Assembly: GCA_938045315.1 (NCBI GenBank) | Contig: CALINM010000202.1 | Span: 1 to 10,617, forward strand | DNA from: an uncultured bacterium | Lineage (GTDB): Bacteria > CALINM01 | DNA: 10,617 bases | Direction: 5' to 3' | In this document: in pieces, positions 1,614-8,296 of the stretch | How the letters are laid out: every line of letters begins with the position of its first letter | How positions within the stretch are numbered: position 1 is the stretch's first letter | Notes under the pieces: generated by a model | The model's input: the letters and a program-made list of their open reading frames with translations, nothing else | What the model was told of the DNA's origin: nothing | Database searches by the model: none | Made by a program: the position numbers and the translations under genes

Positions 1614-2630
1614 TCACCCCGTATGTTTATCCTTTTTTAAAGGCCATCCTATGAGGGATCTAACCTTAACATCTGTCTCTACCACTGGTATTCCTAATCT
1701 TTTAGAAAAAATTGTATTCACATCTTCCCTCGATGAATTTTTTAAAAGGTCTTGAGCAAATTTGATTCTGTTTTTCTGAAAAAAAAGTATTACTGTTGAA
1801 CTACCAGGTCTAAAAAGACTTTTAGGCTGTCCTTTTTTTATGAGAATTCCCTTGCTCACTTTTACAGGGTTGTCATACCTGTATTCGCTATAACACTGGA
1901 CAATATCACCTATTAAAAGTGCTACAATCTCTATCATAGCAACAATACCAACATTTGTACCTCCTTCTATGTCTGTGTCTATTACTGTTACAAATCTCTT
2001 ATTTTTGGAATAGGGATGGCAAATAGAAATCAGTGCTTCAGGATGACAGGAATTGTATACTCCATCAATGCTATAAAAATCAATCACAACACCCGTTACT
2101 GGTACATGAGTATAATGGTATTTTTCAGGAGTTAACCTGAAAATAGCGAAATCACCATCTTCAAATGTTTTGTGCCATTCTTTTTTTTCAGCCCCTAACA
2201 AATCTTGATGATCAAAAAACTTATTTTTTATATAGAAGTATTTATTTTCCATGGAAGAACCTAAGGTGACTTTTGAATCAGCAGGCGAGACAATGGCGTC
2301 TTCTTCCTCTGGTAAAGGTCTTGTTTCCCAATATCTAATCTTTCTCTCAAAGATTTTTCTTGGTGTATCAAGATTATCTGGTGAGTCGAAACATTCAGTT
2401 AGATCTATTCCCATTTTTTTCATAAAAGTTTTTGTGCCGGCTAATTTAGCCCCAAGGAAAGAGTCGTATAAGAAAAAGCTAAAAATTTCTGATACTCTCT
2501 TTGATGTAAATATTTTGTATAAAAAATTTGGGTTTTCCCTAATTGTTGAGTATAGAAATTTGACTACTTTATCACCATAAAACTCTTCTCTAATAATATT
2601 ACCTGTCTGCCTGTCTATGAACTCATGCAT
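1614..2630 (-). CDS. psd: Phosphatidylserine decarboxylase proenzyme
   Basis: This enzyme converts phosphatidylserine to phosphatidylethanolamine, the last step of PE synthesis, at the inner membrane. The protein (338 aa from this start) opens with FIDRQTG, typical of the family. It has the catalytic Asp in IVSPADSKV (about residue 118), the YHYTHVPVTG motif with the catalytic His (172-175), and the self-cleavage site FRPGSSTVILFF (Gly-Ser near 276-277). Cleavage there would yield a beta chain and a pyruvoyl-bearing alpha chain. The GSS form is the one seen in longer PSD types rather than the E. coli LGST form. I chose the ATG at 2630 because GAGG (2637-2640) sits 6 bases upstream and the protein then starts MHEFIDRQTG; an ATG at 2642 is also in frame. 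The start overlaps the end of the upstream 816-aa gene by 8 bases, so translation is probably coupled. Confidence 0.9.
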   Translation of the reverse strand: MHEFIDRQTGNIIREEFYGDKVVKFLYSTIRENPNFLYKIFTSKRVSEIFSFFLYDSFLGAKLAGTKTFMKKMGIDLTECFDSPDNLDTPRKIFERKIRYWETRPLPEEEDAIVSPADSKVTLGSSMENKYFYIKNKFFDHQDLLGAEKKEWHKTFEDGDFAIFRLTPEKYHYTHVPVTGVVIDFYSIDGVYNSCHPEALISICHPYSKNKRFVTVIDTDIEGGTNVGIVAMIEIVALLIGDIVQCYSEYRYDNPVKVSKGILIKKGQPKSLFRPGSSTVILFFQKNRIKFAQDLLKNSSREDVNTIFSKRLGIPVVETDVKVRSLIGWPLKKDKHTG

Positions 2631-5073
2631 CTCTGACCTCATCTTTTTGCATAAAGTTATCCATATCTGTTTTTATTGTTAAAATAGTGAGGTGGATTAA
2701 CTTTTTCAAATCTTCTTCACTAATGTTTTCATTGAAAATATCTTTTTTTCTTACTGTTAAAAAGGCTTCTGCGGATGATTCATTTATAATTGATTTTATG
2801 TCAATATAATCTAAAAGTTTTTTTGTTATAAAAAGCTGATCTAATTTTTTGAACTCCTCTTTCATGACTTCGTAAGATTCTTCAAAATGTTTATTTCTTA
2901 AAGTTTCTCTGTAATATCTTTCTGCTTCTTTATTGAAATCCTCTCCCGAGATTAATAAAGGATCTTTTTTCATTCTGTTTTTCATAATGCCCTTTATCAT
3001 CCTTGCATAGCACGAAAACTCTTCTTGTTTTTCTAATCTTTCTTTTAATGACTCAATGGTATTTTCTATTCCCATCATATTAATTAACTCTTTTCCATCC
3101 TCCTGGATAATTTTTAAAAGAGCCCTTTTATATTCTTTACTACTAATCCTTATGTAACCTGAGTAACGATGGCTAAATCTTGAGTTCGACACTTTTTGTA
3201 AAATTTTTAGCATAAATTTATTTTTAGTTTCTCTGTTTATGTAATATGTGGGTATCCCTATAGATTCGCCGAAGAAAATCTGTCTTCTCTCACTTTCAAT
3301 TGTTGGATCGTCTGGAATGTGATCATGGGTTACTTCTCCCGTTAGAATATACTTGTAGGCAAGGCATGTGAGTAGTACTTGTATGCTTACTGCTTCTCCC
3401 ATGTCTTTAAGGACACTTTCAAATACACTGTAATATCTACCTTCAAAGCCGGAATAACCTTTGCTCCCGTAATCTCTTAATCTATAAAGGAGATAAATGG
3501 ACATTTTTTGATCAAAGATACCAAGATGTTCAAGGTCCCTTTTTAATTTTTTTTCGTTGCCAATTAAACCATTAAGTGCAGGACTTTGATCTGTGGAAAG
3601 TAAACATACAAGGTAATCTATAAGGCGAAAATCTATTACAACATCACCTTTTAATCCTAAGATAAAGCTTAGTAGCTTATCTAACCAGGTGGGACCAAAA
3701 GGTGTTATTGATCTGCCAAAAAAATTATTTTTTGCCTTTTTCTTCCACCTTCTCCATATCATTCTAAGATGTGTAAAGTCAAGTTCATGGGGTAAAAATC
3801 CTAAAACATTTTCAGGATGAAACTCCCAGAAATCTATTCTATATGGTGATGCTGAAAAAGTTCCCACAAAAAGGGGGAGAAAATGTTCCATTATTTTAAT
3901 TACCAAATCACCAATATACTTCTCATCAACTTTATCAAAGCCTGAGTCAGGATTTGATAAAAGGGCAGTAATTTTTTTGCTGCTTATGCTTACATGTGTG
4001 CCATTATTGAGTAAAGAGATATTTGAGATATTTGGTAATGTAATCAAATTTCTTGTAATGATACCCGCATCTTTTAGTTTTGAAATAGTGTTTAGATGAC
4101 TTCTTGATAACACCTGATGACAGAGACTCATGTAATGGTATTTTTCCTCGCCCCTATCCCAACCAGAGAGGCAGGGGTTTAAAAATAATTCTCTATAGAC
4201 TGAGTCTGGAATTAGACTATTTAGTTTTCTTAACCTAACAGGTGGGTGGGAGGAAAAATATATTACAACTTTTTGATCGCTATCAAGTAAGGAAAATCTT
4301 TTATTTGAATACATAACTAAAAGCTGTGTAAAAAAGTAACGTTTCAATGTCTCCTTTGCTAAAGATTTGCCAAGTCCATTCTTACTATTTAAGTTGATTG
4401 GTGTAAAAGATATAATCTCAGGAGAGGTGTTATCATTAATGAAAGAATTTATAATTTTTTCTCCATATTCTCTAATTATTTTAGGTGATTTGCTGTCACA
4501 TATTGAAACATCTGCAAGACTAAGCTTCAGTAAATAGCTAACTGGAAATCTCACGTATGTTTTTTCCTCTGTTTTTCTGAAGAATTTATTCAAGTCAGAT
4601 CTTTTGCCTAAGGATGGGTTTTTTTTATCATAGTTAAGATCAGTCAGTATTATTTCGTATAGCTTATTACCAAGTACTTCCTTTGGAATTCTAATCCAAC
4701 AGTTTTCCCAGACATTATCATTATTATCATTTATAAAATTTTCGATACCCTCCATTATTTTTTTCGATGCATCACCAGTTTTTATCCTTCTTATCAAGCT
4801 TTTATAGAAAATTGTTTCCTGTAACTCCCTTGCAACATCCACATTGTACTTTTTACCGATGATGCATGTCTGAAATTCATTTTCTGTCCCCCCAGTGACA
4901 TCATAGTCTGAATATGGTAAGTTTTCATAGAAACTTGAGTCATTTGTCCCATTTATTGACATTATTTCAAGGATATTTTTTAAATATTGCTGGTCTGAAG
5001 ATGGTAAAAAACTTGATTTGATAGGCACTTTTGCTAAAAAGTTCATATATTTTTCTACTTTTACACAAATCAT
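2623..5073 (-). CDS. Large conserved-looking protein of unknown function, first gene of the psd operon
   Basis: I do not recognise a named family. The product is 816 aa (807 if translation starts at the ATG at 5046; neither start has a good ribosome binding site), with no signal peptide and no clear membrane span, so it is probably cytoplasmic or membrane-peripheral. The middle carries dense aromatic/His/Arg motifs that look like an active or binding site: FSSHPPVRLR (273-282), YRIDFWEFHPE (411-421) followed by LGFLPHELDFTHLRM and a basic RRWKKKAK patch, GFEGRYYSVF (542-551), and THDHIPDD (582-589) followed by SERRQIFFG. The C-terminal 150 residues are charged and helical, with coiled-coil-like stretches. 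It heads a tight operon with psd and the Lgt-like gene and overlaps psd, so a role in phospholipid or envelope metabolism is inferred from context only. Confidence 0.85.
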   Translation of the reverse strand: MICVKVEKYMNFLAKVPIKSSFLPSSDQQYLKNILEIMSINGTNDSSFYENLPYSDYDVTGGTENEFQTCIIGKKYNVDVARELQETIFYKSLIRRIKTGDASKKIMEGIENFINDNNDNVWENCWIRIPKEVLGNKLYEIILTDLNYDKKNPSLGKRSDLNKFFRKTEEKTYVRFPVSYLLKLSLADVSICDSKSPKIIREYGEKIINSFINDNTSPEIISFTPINLNSKNGLGKSLAKETLKRYFFTQLLVMYSNKRFSLLDSDQKVVIYFSSHPPVRLRKLNSLIPDSVYRELFLNPCLSGWDRGEEKYHYMSLCHQVLSRSHLNTISKLKDAGIITRNLITLPNISNISLLNNGTHVSISSKKITALLSNPDSGFDKVDEKYIGDLVIKIMEHFLPLFVGTFSASPYRIDFWEFHPENVLGFLPHELDFTHLRMIWRRWKKKAKNNFFGRSITPFGPTWLDKLLSFILGLKGDVVIDFRLIDYLVCLLSTDQSPALNGLIGNEKKLKRDLEHLGIFDQKMSIYLLYRLRDYGSKGYSGFEGRYYSVFESVLKDMGEAVSIQVLLTCLAYKYILTGEVTHDHIPDDPTIESERRQIFFGESIGIPTYYINRETKNKFMLKILQKVSNSRFSHRYSGYIRISSKEYKRALLKIIQEDGKELINMMGIENTIESLKERLEKQEEFSCYARMIKGIMKNRMKKDPLLISGEDFNKEAERYYRETLRNKHFEESYEVMKEEFKKLDQLFITKKLLDYIDIKSIINESSAEAFLTVRKKDIFNENISEEDLKKLIHLTILTIKTDMDNFMQKDEVRDA

Positions 5074-5333: not shown

Positions 5334-5801
5334 ATGAAGAGAGTTCTGTTATCAGTAATGTTTCTTTTATCATTAAATGTTGTATCCTTTGCTTATGATC
5401 AAGAACTGGCAGCTAAGTTTGACAGGATGTTCTCACAGATGACTCAGGAAGTGCTTGCTATGGCACCGTGCCAGATTACCCCTGAAAAAGTGCTAGAAAT
5501 GTTAAACAAACAGGAAGAGTTTTATGTCCTCGATATCAGAAGGCCTGCGGAGCAGAACTTTGTTGGTTTTACTTTCAAAAATGCTTTGCACATCCCCATG
5601 AATGAGGTATTTAAAAAGGAAAATCTCTCCAAATTGCCAAAGAACAAAAAGATTGTTGTTGTTTGCCATTCTGGAACCAGAGCAGCACCAACAACTTTGG
5701 CTCTAAGAATGATTGGCTTTGAAAATGCAGTAATGTTAAGAGGTGGTATTTCAGCGCTTGCTGCAGCTGTTACTCCAAAAACTCTACCCTTAGAAAAATA
5801 A
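5334..5801 (+). CDS. Exported single-domain rhodanese-like protein
   Basis: This 155-aa protein belongs to the rhodanese (sulfurtransferase) superfamily. Residues 1-20 form a classic signal peptide (KR, hydrophobic core, cleavage after SFA), so it should work in the periplasm. The rhodanese fold starts near residue 50 (ITPEKVLEMLN), continues with the VLDIRRPAEQ element (Asp67) and reaches the active-site loop CHSGTRA with catalytic Cys111; RGGIS near 136 is the family's C-terminal motif. Another Cys (C46, APCQIT) lies just before the domain. Such proteins carry sulfane sulfur or act as redox or sulfur-transfer partners in anaerobic respiration; the actual substrate is not shown. A near-perfect AGGAGGTG (5321-5328) precedes the ATG by 5 bases, which suggests high expression. 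The gene stands alone, divergent from the psd operon and convergent with the metal ATPase. Confidence 0.92.
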   Translation: MKRVLLSVMFLLSLNVVSFAYDQELAAKFDRMFSQMTQEVLAMAPCQITPEKVLEMLNKQEEFYVLDIRRPAEQNFVGFTFKNALHIPMNEVFKKENLSKLPKNKKIVVVCHSGTRAAPTTLALRMIGFENAVMLRGGISALAAAVTPKTLPLEK

Positions 5802-5808
5802 ATTTTAT

Positions 5809-5855
5809 ACTCCTTCCAGGGTAAAAGCCCCCGGAAGGAGTGTTTTATTTTTCTA
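5809..5855. terminator. Bidirectional rho-independent terminator
   Basis: ACTCCTTCC (5809-5817) pairs perfectly with GGAAGGAGT (5833-5841), and GGG/CCC can extend the stem inside. The plus strand continues with GTTTTATTTTTC. The minus strand continues into ATAAAATTTATTTTTC, also T-rich. It sits between the converging rhodanese and P-type ATPase genes and can end transcription from both sides. Confidence 0.85.
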
Positions 5856-7752
5856 TCCTTTCGAATAAAAGCAAAGTAGAGCTTAATACAACTGTTACAC
5901 ATCCAGCTTCTTGAAACATAACTGCCATTACTGGTGATAGTTTACCCATAGAAGCAAGTAATAGACCTATTACATTGTAAATTATGGAAAAAAAGATGTT
6001 TAGCTTGATTCTTTTCAGAACCTTTCTTGACATTTTTATAAATTCAACAATTTTATTTATATTGTCATCCATAAGCGTTACGTTTGATGCCTCTATGGCA
6101 ATGTCTGTTCCTGCTTTACCCATAACAATACCCACATCTGCCAGAGCTAAAGCTGGGGCATCATTAATTCCGTCACCTACCATGCCTATTATTTTGCCGT
6201 CTTTTTTTAATTCTTTCACAACATTTTGTTTATCTTCAGGGAGTAGTTCGGCATAATACCTATCGATGTTTATTTTTTTAGATACTTCCCTTGCACTATT
6301 TTTGTTATCACCTGTTAGCATAATTATGTCTTTAATGCCCAAGTTTTTGAGAGTGCTTATTGCTGAAACAGTTTCTGATTTTATCTCATCCTCTATAGCT
6401 ATAATTCCAGTTAGTGTGCTATCTATGGCAACAAAAATCGCGGTTCTACCCAAATGTAGTTGCCTTTCATATTCGTTTAGAACATTATCTGGTATTGAGA
6501 TGTTAAAGGATTTAATAAAATTTTCTTTGCCTATTATGACCCTCTTACCATTAACCAATGCCTCGATTCCCATACCCGGTGTTGCTTTGAATTCTTCGGG
6601 GTCTTCGACTTTTATGTTTTTTTCTCTTGCATAATTAATAATTGCCTTTGCAAGGGGGTGTTCAGAGTATTTTTCTGCGGATGCACAGATTTTTAGTAAC
6701 TCATTTTTGTCAATTTTATAAGAAACTACTTCTGTAACGATAGGTTTCCCAAGAGTGACTGTTCCAGTTTTGTCAATGACAAGTGTATCAATTCGGCCTG
6801 CAATTTCAAAGTATATCCCACCTTTGATTAAAACAGCTCTTCTTGCCATGTTAGCTATACCCGCAGAAACAGCAGAAGGTGTAGCTATTGCGAAGGCACA
6901 GGGACAGGCAACAAGTAATACTGCAACAGCAACTTTAATATTGCCAGTAAATATAAAAGCTATGATTGCAATTACAAGTACCGTAGGTAAGAAATAGTTA
7001 GTAAATTTATCAGCGATGTTTTGTATGGGTGCTTTAGATTCCTGTGCCGATTCAACTAAATGAACAATTTTGGCAATTGTTGTATCTTCACCAACCCTGG
7101 TTGCTTTAATCTCAAGGCGTCCTGTTTCATTAAGTGTGCCTGCAAACACATCATCACCCACACTTTTATCTACAGGAAAAGATTCCCCTGTAATTGGAGC
7201 TTGATTAACAGTGGAAAAGCCTTCGACCACAGTGCCATCCACGGCTATTCTCTCTCCTGGCCTAACAACCACAATGTCCCCCAACTTGATTTCTGAAATG
7301 TTGACAGTTCTTTCTTCACCGTCTATCTTTATATTTGCAGTTTTTGGAGTTAAGTTGAGAAGACTTGAAATGCTTTTTCTTGTCTTGTCAATTGTATAAG
7401 CTTCGAGAGAACCCACTACAGCCATGATTAGTATAATCACTGCTGATGGGATAAACTCTCCTGCTAAGATACTTACTAATATAGCTATTGTTACAAAAAC
7501 GTTTACAGTTATTTTCTTACTTAGAACATCTATTATGCCTGCATAAAATCTTTGCCAGCCACCAAAAAGAATAGCTATAAGTGCTAGAAAAATGCCGATA
7601 AACTGTCCTGTTATATTCAAAGTACCCACAGAAATTGAGATAGAAGATTTATACATAATATAAGCTAAGAGAGTTAACAATCCGATTAATAATGGGGCAA
7701 TAAGAAAAACTAGTAATTCTCTTAAATTAAATAGGGAGTTATTATTTTCCAT
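5845..7752 (-). CDS. Heavy-metal-translocating P1B-type ATPase without N-terminal metal-binding domain
   Basis: This inner-membrane pump uses ATP hydrolysis to export soft or transition metal ions. All P-type hallmarks are present in the 635-aa product: ITGES (187-191, actuator), CPC in the sixth membrane helix (283-285, metal path), DKTGT with phosphorylated Asp327, SEHP (363-366, nucleotide-binding HP motif of P1B pumps), TGDN (480-483) and GDGINDAP (526-533). The N terminus goes straight into membrane helices, with no CxxC heavy-metal-associated domain. Helix 7-8 reads IIYNVIGLLLA then MFQEAGC, which does not cleanly match the Cu, Zn/Cd or Co subgroup signatures I know, so the substrate stays open. 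The ATG overlaps the stop of the upstream 51-aa Cys-rich gene (TAATG), implying coupled translation. It is the last gene of an ArsR-controlled operon. Confidence 0.93.
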   Translation of the reverse strand: MENNNSLFNLRELLVFLIAPLLIGLLTLLAYIMYKSSISISVGTLNITGQFIGIFLALIAILFGGWQRFYAGIIDVLSKKITVNVFVTIAILVSILAGEFIPSAVIILIMAVVGSLEAYTIDKTRKSISSLLNLTPKTANIKIDGEERTVNISEIKLGDIVVVRPGERIAVDGTVVEGFSTVNQAPITGESFPVDKSVGDDVFAGTLNETGRLEIKATRVGEDTTIAKIVHLVESAQESKAPIQNIADKFTNYFLPTVLVIAIIAFIFTGNIKVAVAVLLVACPCAFAIATPSAVSAGIANMARRAVLIKGGIYFEIAGRIDTLVIDKTGTVTLGKPIVTEVVSYKIDKNELLKICASAEKYSEHPLAKAIINYAREKNIKVEDPEEFKATPGMGIEALVNGKRVIIGKENFIKSFNISIPDNVLNEYERQLHLGRTAIFVAIDSTLTGIIAIEDEIKSETVSAISTLKNLGIKDIIMLTGDNKNSAREVSKKINIDRYYAELLPEDKQNVVKELKKDGKIIGMVGDGINDAPALALADVGIVMGKAGTDIAIEASNVTLMDDNINKIVEFIKMSRKVLKRIKLNIFFSIIYNVIGLLLASMGKLSPVMAVMFQEAGCVTVVLSSTLLLFERIEK

Positions 7753-7907
7753 TATTTATCCTTTTTTTCTTCATCTTTTTTCTCTTTTTCCTTATTTTCC
7801 ACATGACATCCACAACCGGGGCCACAACCACTATTTGCCTTATTTAATGATTCTTTAATAAGTGAGAAAAAACCTTTAATTCCACCAATCTTCTTTTTTT
7901 CTTCCAT
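7752..7907 (-). CDS. 51-aa Cys/His-rich putative metal-binding peptide
   Basis: A small gene begins at the ATG at 7907 behind a perfect GAGGAGG (7914-7920) and ends at TAA (7752-7754), which shares a base with the ATPase start. The peptide has a basic, amphipathic N-terminal part (KIGGIKGFFSLIKESL), a central SGCGPGCGCH motif with Cys28, Cys32, Cys34 and His35, and a highly charged Lys/Glu tail. Four clustered thiol/imidazole ligands in so short a protein strongly suggest metal binding. With an ArsR regulator 14 bases upstream and a P1B ATPase that lacks its own metal-binding domain downstream, the natural inference is a metallochaperone or a split-off metal-binding module of the pump. I know no named family for it; the function is inferred from motif and context. 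Coding status is well supported by the ribosome binding site and gene packing. Confidence 0.85.
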   Translation of the reverse strand: MEEKKKIGGIKGFFSLIKESLNKANSGCGPGCGCHVENKEKEKKDEEKKDK

Positions 7908-7921
7908 AGCAATCCTCCTCT

Positions 7922-8260
7922 TCATTTATTTTCTTGTAAAATACATAATCCTGCTTCTAAAAGCTTTTGAATACAAGGGTCAATAATTTTATAACGCACA
8001 TTATTTCTATCTCTAGTAGCCTTAACAATTCCTTTATCAACTAAACGTTGAATTTGATTTGAAATCGCTTGTGGCTTCATCTCTAAAATATTGGCGATCT
8101 CCGTTAAACATATATTATCATATTTAATTATTGTGTGAATAATCCTCAGTCTTGTGTCGTTTGCAAGTGTTTTAAAAAGGTGAGATAGATTTGTAGCCTC
8201 ATGAAAGTTCAAAATAGATGTTTCCTTCAAAGTTTTAAAAAAACTACAGGTTTCGTTCAT
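7922..8260 (-). CDS. ArsR/SmtB-family metal-sensing transcriptional repressor
   Basis: This 112-aa winged-helix protein matches the ArsR/SmtB family in length and layout: LFKTLANDTRLRII (28-41), a helix-turn-helix with LTEIANIL then KPQAISNQIQRLVDKGIV, and a wing containing RDRNNVRYKI. Candidate metal ligands are Cys5, Cys51 (ICLTEIA, at the position of the first Cys of the CadC ELCVCDL motif), Cys96 (DPC) and Cys106 (GLC). A C-terminal Cys pair next to a helix-3 Cys recalls thiol-type Cd/Pb sensors, but the metal cannot be named from sequence. It is first in the operon with the Cys-rich peptide and the pump, and most likely represses that operon until metal binds. The ATG at 8260 is preferred; an in-frame GTG at 8275 overlaps the promoter candidate. 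Confidence 0.92.
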   Translation of the reverse strand: MNETCSFFKTLKETSILNFHEATNLSHLFKTLANDTRLRIIHTIIKYDNICLTEIANILEMKPQAISNQIQRLVDKGIVKATRDRNNVRYKIIDPCIQKLLEAGLCILQENK

Positions 8261-8266
8261 GTATAG

Positions 8267-8296
8267 ATAATACACTATGTTGTGTAACTGTGTAAA
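8267..8296 (-). promoter_or_regulatory. Promoter of the arsR-type metal operon, apparently leaderless
   Basis: On the minus strand TTTACA (8291-8296, 5 of 6) and TATTAT (8267-8272, 5 of 6) are spaced by 18 bases. The expected transcript start falls at about 8260, the A of the ArsR ATG, and no ribosome binding site precedes that ATG. A leaderless mRNA is therefore the simplest reading. Confidence 0.5.
8271..8294. promoter_or_regulatory. Candidate ArsR operator (TACAC/GTGTA half-sites)
   Basis: TACAC (8271-8275) and GTGTA (8282-8286) form an inverted repeat with a 6-base gap, and a second GTGTA copy lies at 8290-8294 in direct orientation. All three lie between or across the -35 and -10 boxes, where a bound ArsR-type repressor would block RNA polymerase. 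The assignment rests on position and symmetry only. Confidence 0.45.

Follow-up and report, generated by a model that had tools for sequence, protein, structure and literature searches.

A probable antR-antC-antA operon with a 51-residue Cys/His peptide in the DNA of an uncultured bacterium

Metal pumps usually carry their own metal-binding domains, and a pump that has none and is encoded directly behind a short Cys/His peptide raises the question of which metal such a pair handles and what the peptide contributes. We address this question for an operon in a 10,617-nucleotide contig of an uncultured bacterium (CALINM010000202.1; the whole stretch analyzed is called the window), in which an ArsR-family regulator, a 51-aa peptide and a P1B ATPase are encoded head to tail on the minus strand (Table 1).

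The regulator and peptide genes are separated by a gap of +14 bases and the peptide and ATPase genes by a gap of -1, the peptide stop codon and the ATPase ATG overlapping by one base (TAATG), and the coordinates of all three genes confirm the tight packing described in the initial annotation. The span of 5845-8296 given there for the operon holds for the genes, while its 8296 end takes in the promoter; the regulator itself starts at ATG 8260 or GTG 8275, and its stop codon ends at 7922. The peptide reading frame opens at 7925, and a start at ATG 7907, yielding 51 residues, is likely because GAGGAGG (7920-7914) directly precedes it. On the other side of the operon lies a convergent gene (5334-5801, plus strand) for a rhodanese-domain protein with an N-terminal hydrophobic stretch. 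The hairpin between the two, seen by eye, is likely a terminator common to both, and was not detected by the terminator scan. Further along, an 816-aa protein without any Pfam match (2623-5073, minus strand) is encoded by a gene that overlaps a phosphatidylserine decarboxylase-like gene (1614-2642), and this one in turn overlaps an LGT-like gene (553-1617).

Table 1. Operon features and their positions in the window
Feature	Position	Strand	Basis or remark
ArsR/SmtB-family regulator, AntR-like	7922..8260	(-)	ATG start; an upstream GTG would give 8275; phmmer to PDB 6uvu
AntC-like Cys/His peptide, 51 aa	7752..7907	(-)	tblastn homologues on Enterobacter plasmids; synonymous divergence
AntA-like P1B ATPase, 635 aa, without N-terminal metal-binding domain	5845..7752	(-)	identity to plasmid pumps, tree clade, motifs
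Shine-Dalgarno GAGGAGG of the 51-aa peptide	7914..7920	(-)	sequence
CGPGCGCH, peptide residues 28-35, putative three-thiolate Sb(III)/As(III) site	7803..7826	(-)	invariant in homologues found; metal binding inferred
CPC (Cys283, Cys285) within CPCAFAIATP, putative transport site	6898..6906	(-)	invariant in AntA clade
QEAGC (Gln614-Cys618) of the last transmembrane helix, with the third conserved Cys (Cys618)	5899..5913	(-)	invariant within FQEAGCVTVVLSS of the clade
Candidate AntR operator TTACACAACATAGTGTATTAT, overlapping the -10 box	8267..8287	(-)	17/21 match to plasmid antR upstream
Promoter-like TTTACA-18-TATTAT for the operon	8267..8296	(-)	consensus scan 10/12
Hairpin ACTCCTTCC...GGAAGGAGT with a T-rich stretch after it, in the space separating the operon from the convergent rhodanese gene	5809..5841		by eye

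The peptide, whose sequence begins MEEKKKIGGIKGFFSLIKESLNKANSGCGPGCGCHVEN, has neither a long hydrophobic stretch nor a transmembrane segment. It matches no Pfam or NCBIfam family, so that annotation pipelines leave AntC-type peptides unnamed. As the initial annotation had it, three Cys and one His fall within eight residues, and these proved to be the most constant part of the sequence: a tblastn search of plasmids returned four records with a homologue, all from Enterobacter (63-68% identity over 28-30 residues, E=3e-7), and every Cys and the His of CGPGCGCH are invariant across the homologues found. The core KESxNKAxSGCGPGCGCHVEN is retained between the window and plasmid peptides, GCGPGCGCHVEN being unchanged in the Enterobacter homologue (best identity 68% over 28 aa), and the conserved part also includes the helix KGxxxxLKESxNKA. 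The window, as a diverged copy, narrows the conserved core to this short helix and GCGPGCGCHVEN. The helix is suggestively amphipathic in the window (2.5% of shuffles) but not in the homologue (30% of shuffles), and we make no claim of membrane binding. Between the window and the E. hormaechei record L038, 14 of the 19 codons for identical residues differ, therefore selection acts on the protein. Because the homologues hold the same position on unrelated plasmids and these codons have diverged synonymously, the Cys/His peptide is, judged from its sequence, a genuine, conserved gene beyond chance, with only two independent close homologues besides the window to compare.

In all four plasmid records, the peptide directly precedes an ATPase 62-63% identical to the window pump, and in three of them RefSeq annotates the gene before the peptide as AntR, an antimonite-responsive transcriptional repressor. 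The E. hormaechei records L038 and L040 have the peptide as a hypothetical protein between the RefSeq antR and a P-type ATPase, and a third E. hormaechei record likewise contains the peptide, the antR-annotated gene and the pump. The check suggested in the initial annotation thus came out in its favor: CGPGCGCH peptides recur directly before P1B ATPases that lack a metal-binding domain, with Cys and His all conserved.

The fourth record, the E. ludwigii plasmid pEL-ars2 (L039), comes from an isolate collected in tailing mud at Lengshuijiang, Hunan, and has the peptide within an ars operon, following an ArsD-like protein (Pfam ArsD E=3.9e-43) in the same reading frame. ArsR and ArsC precede the pair, and downstream are genes for the pump, for a CBS protein and for an ArsB-type pump. 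A single open reading frame of 177 aa (5611-6144) spans ArsD and the AntC-like peptide, and AGGAGG precedes the internal ATG of the peptide; the frame is possibly either a natural ArsD-AntC fusion or an in-frame internal start. The peptide is missing from the gene list of this record, the plasmid gene table being incomplete. This direct linkage to ArsD on one plasmid supports the idea of a chaperone.

The ATPase carries TGES (188), CPC (283), DKTGT (327), HP (365), TGDN (480) and GDGIND (526), lacks CxxC throughout, has neither Cys nor His in residues 1-90, and matches only the E1-E2_ATPase and hydrolase domains of Pfam; the motif check agrees with the initial annotation of a catalytically complete pump without an N-terminal CxxC domain. 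Identity reaches 63.2% with the E. hormaechei pump and 61.6% with that of E. ludwigii, then drops to ~44% for the next best plasmid records. In a maximum-likelihood tree of 36 pumps, the window pump and two plasmid pumps form a clade (support 100/100, stem 1.33) outside the CopA-type, CopB-like and ZntA-like groups sampled, and among the ATPases examined CPCAFAIATP together with FQEAGCVTVVLSS is found only in the window and plasmid AntA-like pumps. The conserved Cys of the clade, Cys283, Cys285 and Cys618, all lie in predicted membrane segments and may form a three-Cys transport site suited to a trivalent metalloid; an AlphaFold prediction from four sequences (pLDDT 43.5) was too poor for their geometry. 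HMMER alignment places Glu615 of QEAGC on the Glu of the HEGST motif in the CoaT-type structure 7qbz, and the surroundings of TM6 and TM8 resemble those of this ATPase. Assignment to the P1B-2 Zn/Cd/Pb ATPases (ZntA/CadA, CPCALVISTP) was rejected, the ZntA-like clade (100/100) excluding the window pump and the last helix reading QEAGC, as was assignment to the P1B-1 Cu ATPases (CopA, CPCALGLATP), the pump lying outside the CopA clade with QEAGC instead of MxxSS.

By far the best solved relative of the regulator is PDB 6uvu (phmmer E=8e-31 over 107 residues), which we take to be the AntR of Comamonas testosteroni. The positions of its Cys103 and Cys113, the C-terminal pair that presumably binds Sb(III), are conserved in the window regulator (DPCx9C), which is 45% identical to a RefSeq-named AntR; the E. 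hormaechei AntR and the 6uvu chain are the same but for one residue across the stretch that aligns. Upstream, the candidate operator TTACACAACATAGTGTATTAT (8287-8267), within which lies the palindrome TACAC-N6-GTGTA (8271-8286), shares 17 of 21 positions with TTACACAATATCATGTAATAT, which precedes antR in L038. As good a match is reached by 3 of 2000 shuffled pairs, and both sequences overlie the -10 box, which suggests a regulatory circuit conserved together with the genes. The promoter-like consensus matches are weak alone, not being in excess over shuffles.

Regulators of the same subfamily also occur in other settings. On Gram-positive plasmids (L056, L057, L060), regulators 45-50% identical and with the same C-terminal Cys pair lie beside CadD transporters. 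On the S. aureus plasmid L059 (3474-3978), 16 bases separate an AntR-like-subfamily regulator from a downstream gene for a 49-aa Cys-rich metallothionein-like peptide, which weakly matches metallothionein PF02069; here too a sensor is paired with a small thiol protein, and no pump is annotated after them. In Massilia, the subfamily is found beside ABC-transporter genes. Because the window regulator is equally similar to the CadD- or metallothionein-linked ones, the regulator alone does not fix the metal, and it is the pump clade, the peptide and the ars context that carry the metal argument.

The window thus combines an AntR-type regulator with a C-terminal Cys pair, a small Cys-rich AntC between regulator and pump (as in the AntR-linked plasmid copy) and an AntA-type pump without an N-terminal metal-binding domain. 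Because the peptide, the pump clade, the AntR-linked copies, the shared operator and the ArsD and ars context agree, the operon is very probably an ant operon (antR-antC-antA) that would provide resistance to trivalent antimony and possibly also arsenic, Sb(III)/As(III) being the most likely substrate. The ant operon was described from C. testosteroni (JL40), and AntA is presumably a separate P1B subgroup; identity with the JL40 system is read from the AntR-linked plasmid copies, with which the comparison was made, and not from the JL40 AntA and AntC sequences. An et al. are said to have described the antR-antC-antA operon, to have called AntA a new P1B subgroup and to have proposed that the small AntC raises resistance as a chaperone of Sb(III). 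In that case, the hypothesis put forward for the peptide had already been made for its homologue. The system is not an undescribed one: it matches the known ant operon in gene order, peptide, pump clade and AntR Cys pair, and by these sequence features is a diverged relative of an already described operon, in a sparsely sampled lineage. A role for the peptide as a metal-binding module or chaperone fared better, agreeing with the proposal for AntC and with the copy linked to ArsD; the reading of the peptide as a putative partner that binds metal for the pump is likely right in kind. The paper by An et al. is listed among the references of PMC10509353.

Which metal and which function the operon serves can be read in other ways. 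An ordinary exporter of the same architecture for a soft divalent metal (Cd, Zn or Pb), with the peptide as a divalent-metal carrier or buffer, is quite improbable: the pump scores above the cut-off of the cadmium-family NCBIfam model TIGR01512 (480 vs 313.5), though also above that of the copper model TIGR01511, and same-subfamily regulators adjoin CadD on Gram-positive plasmids, but the pump groups with AntR-linked pumps outside the ZntA-like clade, ars genes, ArsD included, surround one of the homologous operons, and the CadD-linked regulators lack the Cys at regulator position 56 that is common to the window and AntR. The initial annotation had set the peptide in place of the pump's metal-binding domain, and we regard it as unlikely that AntC is such a detached domain, replacing a fused N-terminal one lost by the pump. 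No version of an AntA-clade pump bearing a fused domain was found, the peptide has no HMA-like similarity, and by HMMER alignment the surroundings of TM6 and TM8 in the pump resemble those of CoaT-type 7qbz, P1B-4 pumps commonly lacking such a domain. The phrase is not supported, even though the pump has no N-terminal Cys or His and its start overlaps the stop of a gene for a metal-binding-type peptide, as substitution would have it.

That the peptide serves as a small scaffold or stabilizer of the pump, like PacL, or as a cytosolic metalloid buffer, its Cys and His mattering only at high load, we consider possible though doubtful. Its conserved part includes a helix besides the Cys motif, and PacL1, encoded with the Zn pump CtpC, is partly independent of its metal-binding motif (PMC9374683). 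Against this reading, the Cys/His core is the best conserved part of the peptide, neither a DUF1490 match nor a transmembrane stretch is present, and the linkage to ArsD speaks for work of the chaperone type.

For the ant reading, we propose a mechanism that starts from the observed gene order, homology of all three proteins, Cys/His conservation, shared operator and selection on the peptide as a protein, and for which we infer metal identity, binding, transfer and docking. AntR would occupy the palindrome at the -10 box until binding of Sb(III) to its C-terminal Cys pair frees it from the DNA, upon which AntC and AntA, whose genes overlap, would be made. With the three Cys of CGPGCGCH, AntC would take up Sb(III) in the form of a thiol complex, and its conserved helix would pass the ion to AntA, which has no metal-binding domain of its own and carries three conserved Cys in its membrane part; AntA would expel the ion with ATP. 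More speculatively, AntC and AntA might form a dedicated three-thiolate relay for trivalent metalloids, the peptide being a portable donor module hung on other chaperones, as in the ArsD-AntC frame of pEL-ars2, and the pair being old and spread across distant bacterial lineages; we offer this tentatively. A free donor of 51 residues would be a compact test system for metalloid hand-over.

Among the genomes sampled, the group of the window's own genome has only two other members (G001 and G002); the peptide is absent from both, and the best pump match is a CopA-type ATPase in G001 and an HMA-domain ATPase in G002. A peptide search of ~1,140 further genomes, with weak matches inspected, found no true AntC outside the own genome among 386 broad relatives, 369 genomes of one Gammaproteobacteria-like class and 391 relatives of a Pseudomonas-like genome. 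No AntA-clade pump was found in 387 genomes of the phylum of G147, with three candidates scored per genome, and a pump scan of genome contigs gave only relatives of 35-37% identity, without the peptide. Scans of viral contigs with the peptide, with its DNA pattern and with the pump alignment gave no match; phages gave chance matches only, and E. coli genomes had no ant operon, only copA fragments. The operon is rare and patchy in the samples searched, in which Burkholderiales, the group in which ant was described, are poorly covered, and this fits horizontal spread. The GC content of the pump gene (35.5%) is near that of the window (32.8%), therefore any transfer was not recent from a high-GC donor.

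How does the operon compare with known systems? The peptide belongs to none of the small metal-protein families considered: it has no PF00403 match and no CxxC of an HMA/CopZ metallochaperone, and no PF02069 match of a prokaryotic metallothionein. The FeoB-associated Cys-rich membrane proteins (PF12669) are likewise short, with SGCGxGCxC beside a metal transporter, but have a transmembrane helix and adjoin FeoB; the window peptide has no PF12669 match and its neighbors are an ArsR regulator and a P1B ATPase. One such protein (L042, 1407-1560) carries SGCGKGCSC beside FeoB, the same motif grammar with an unrelated transporter partner. The closest analogue from a different family is PacL with its pump CtpC, PacL1 being a small protein encoded with this Zn pump (PMC9374683). 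Like the window peptide, PacL (DUF1490) lies directly before a P1B pump, which needs it, and has a short metal-binding motif; it differs in its transmembrane segment, Glu/Ala repeats and Asp/His motif, no sequence relation was found, and with no Pfam match and no long hydrophobic stretch the peptide was rejected as a member. The arsenic metallochaperone ArsD is also a cytosolic trivalent-metalloid chaperone that works with a pump, and is joined to or in frame with the peptide in pEL-ars2, but it has a thioredoxin-like fold and ArsA ATPase as partner, and the window operon has no ArsD. The ant operon of C. testosteroni JL40 and the Enterobacter plasmid copies share with the window the regulator-peptide-pump order, the GCGPGCGCHVEN core, the 62-63% identical pump, the AntR Cys pair and the palindromic operator over the -10 box. 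The window differs from the ant copies in its 33% GC contig from a sparsely sampled lineage, its diverged regulator (45% identity) and the Lys/Glu-rich tail of its peptide, which is without the extra Cys of the E. hormaechei copy.
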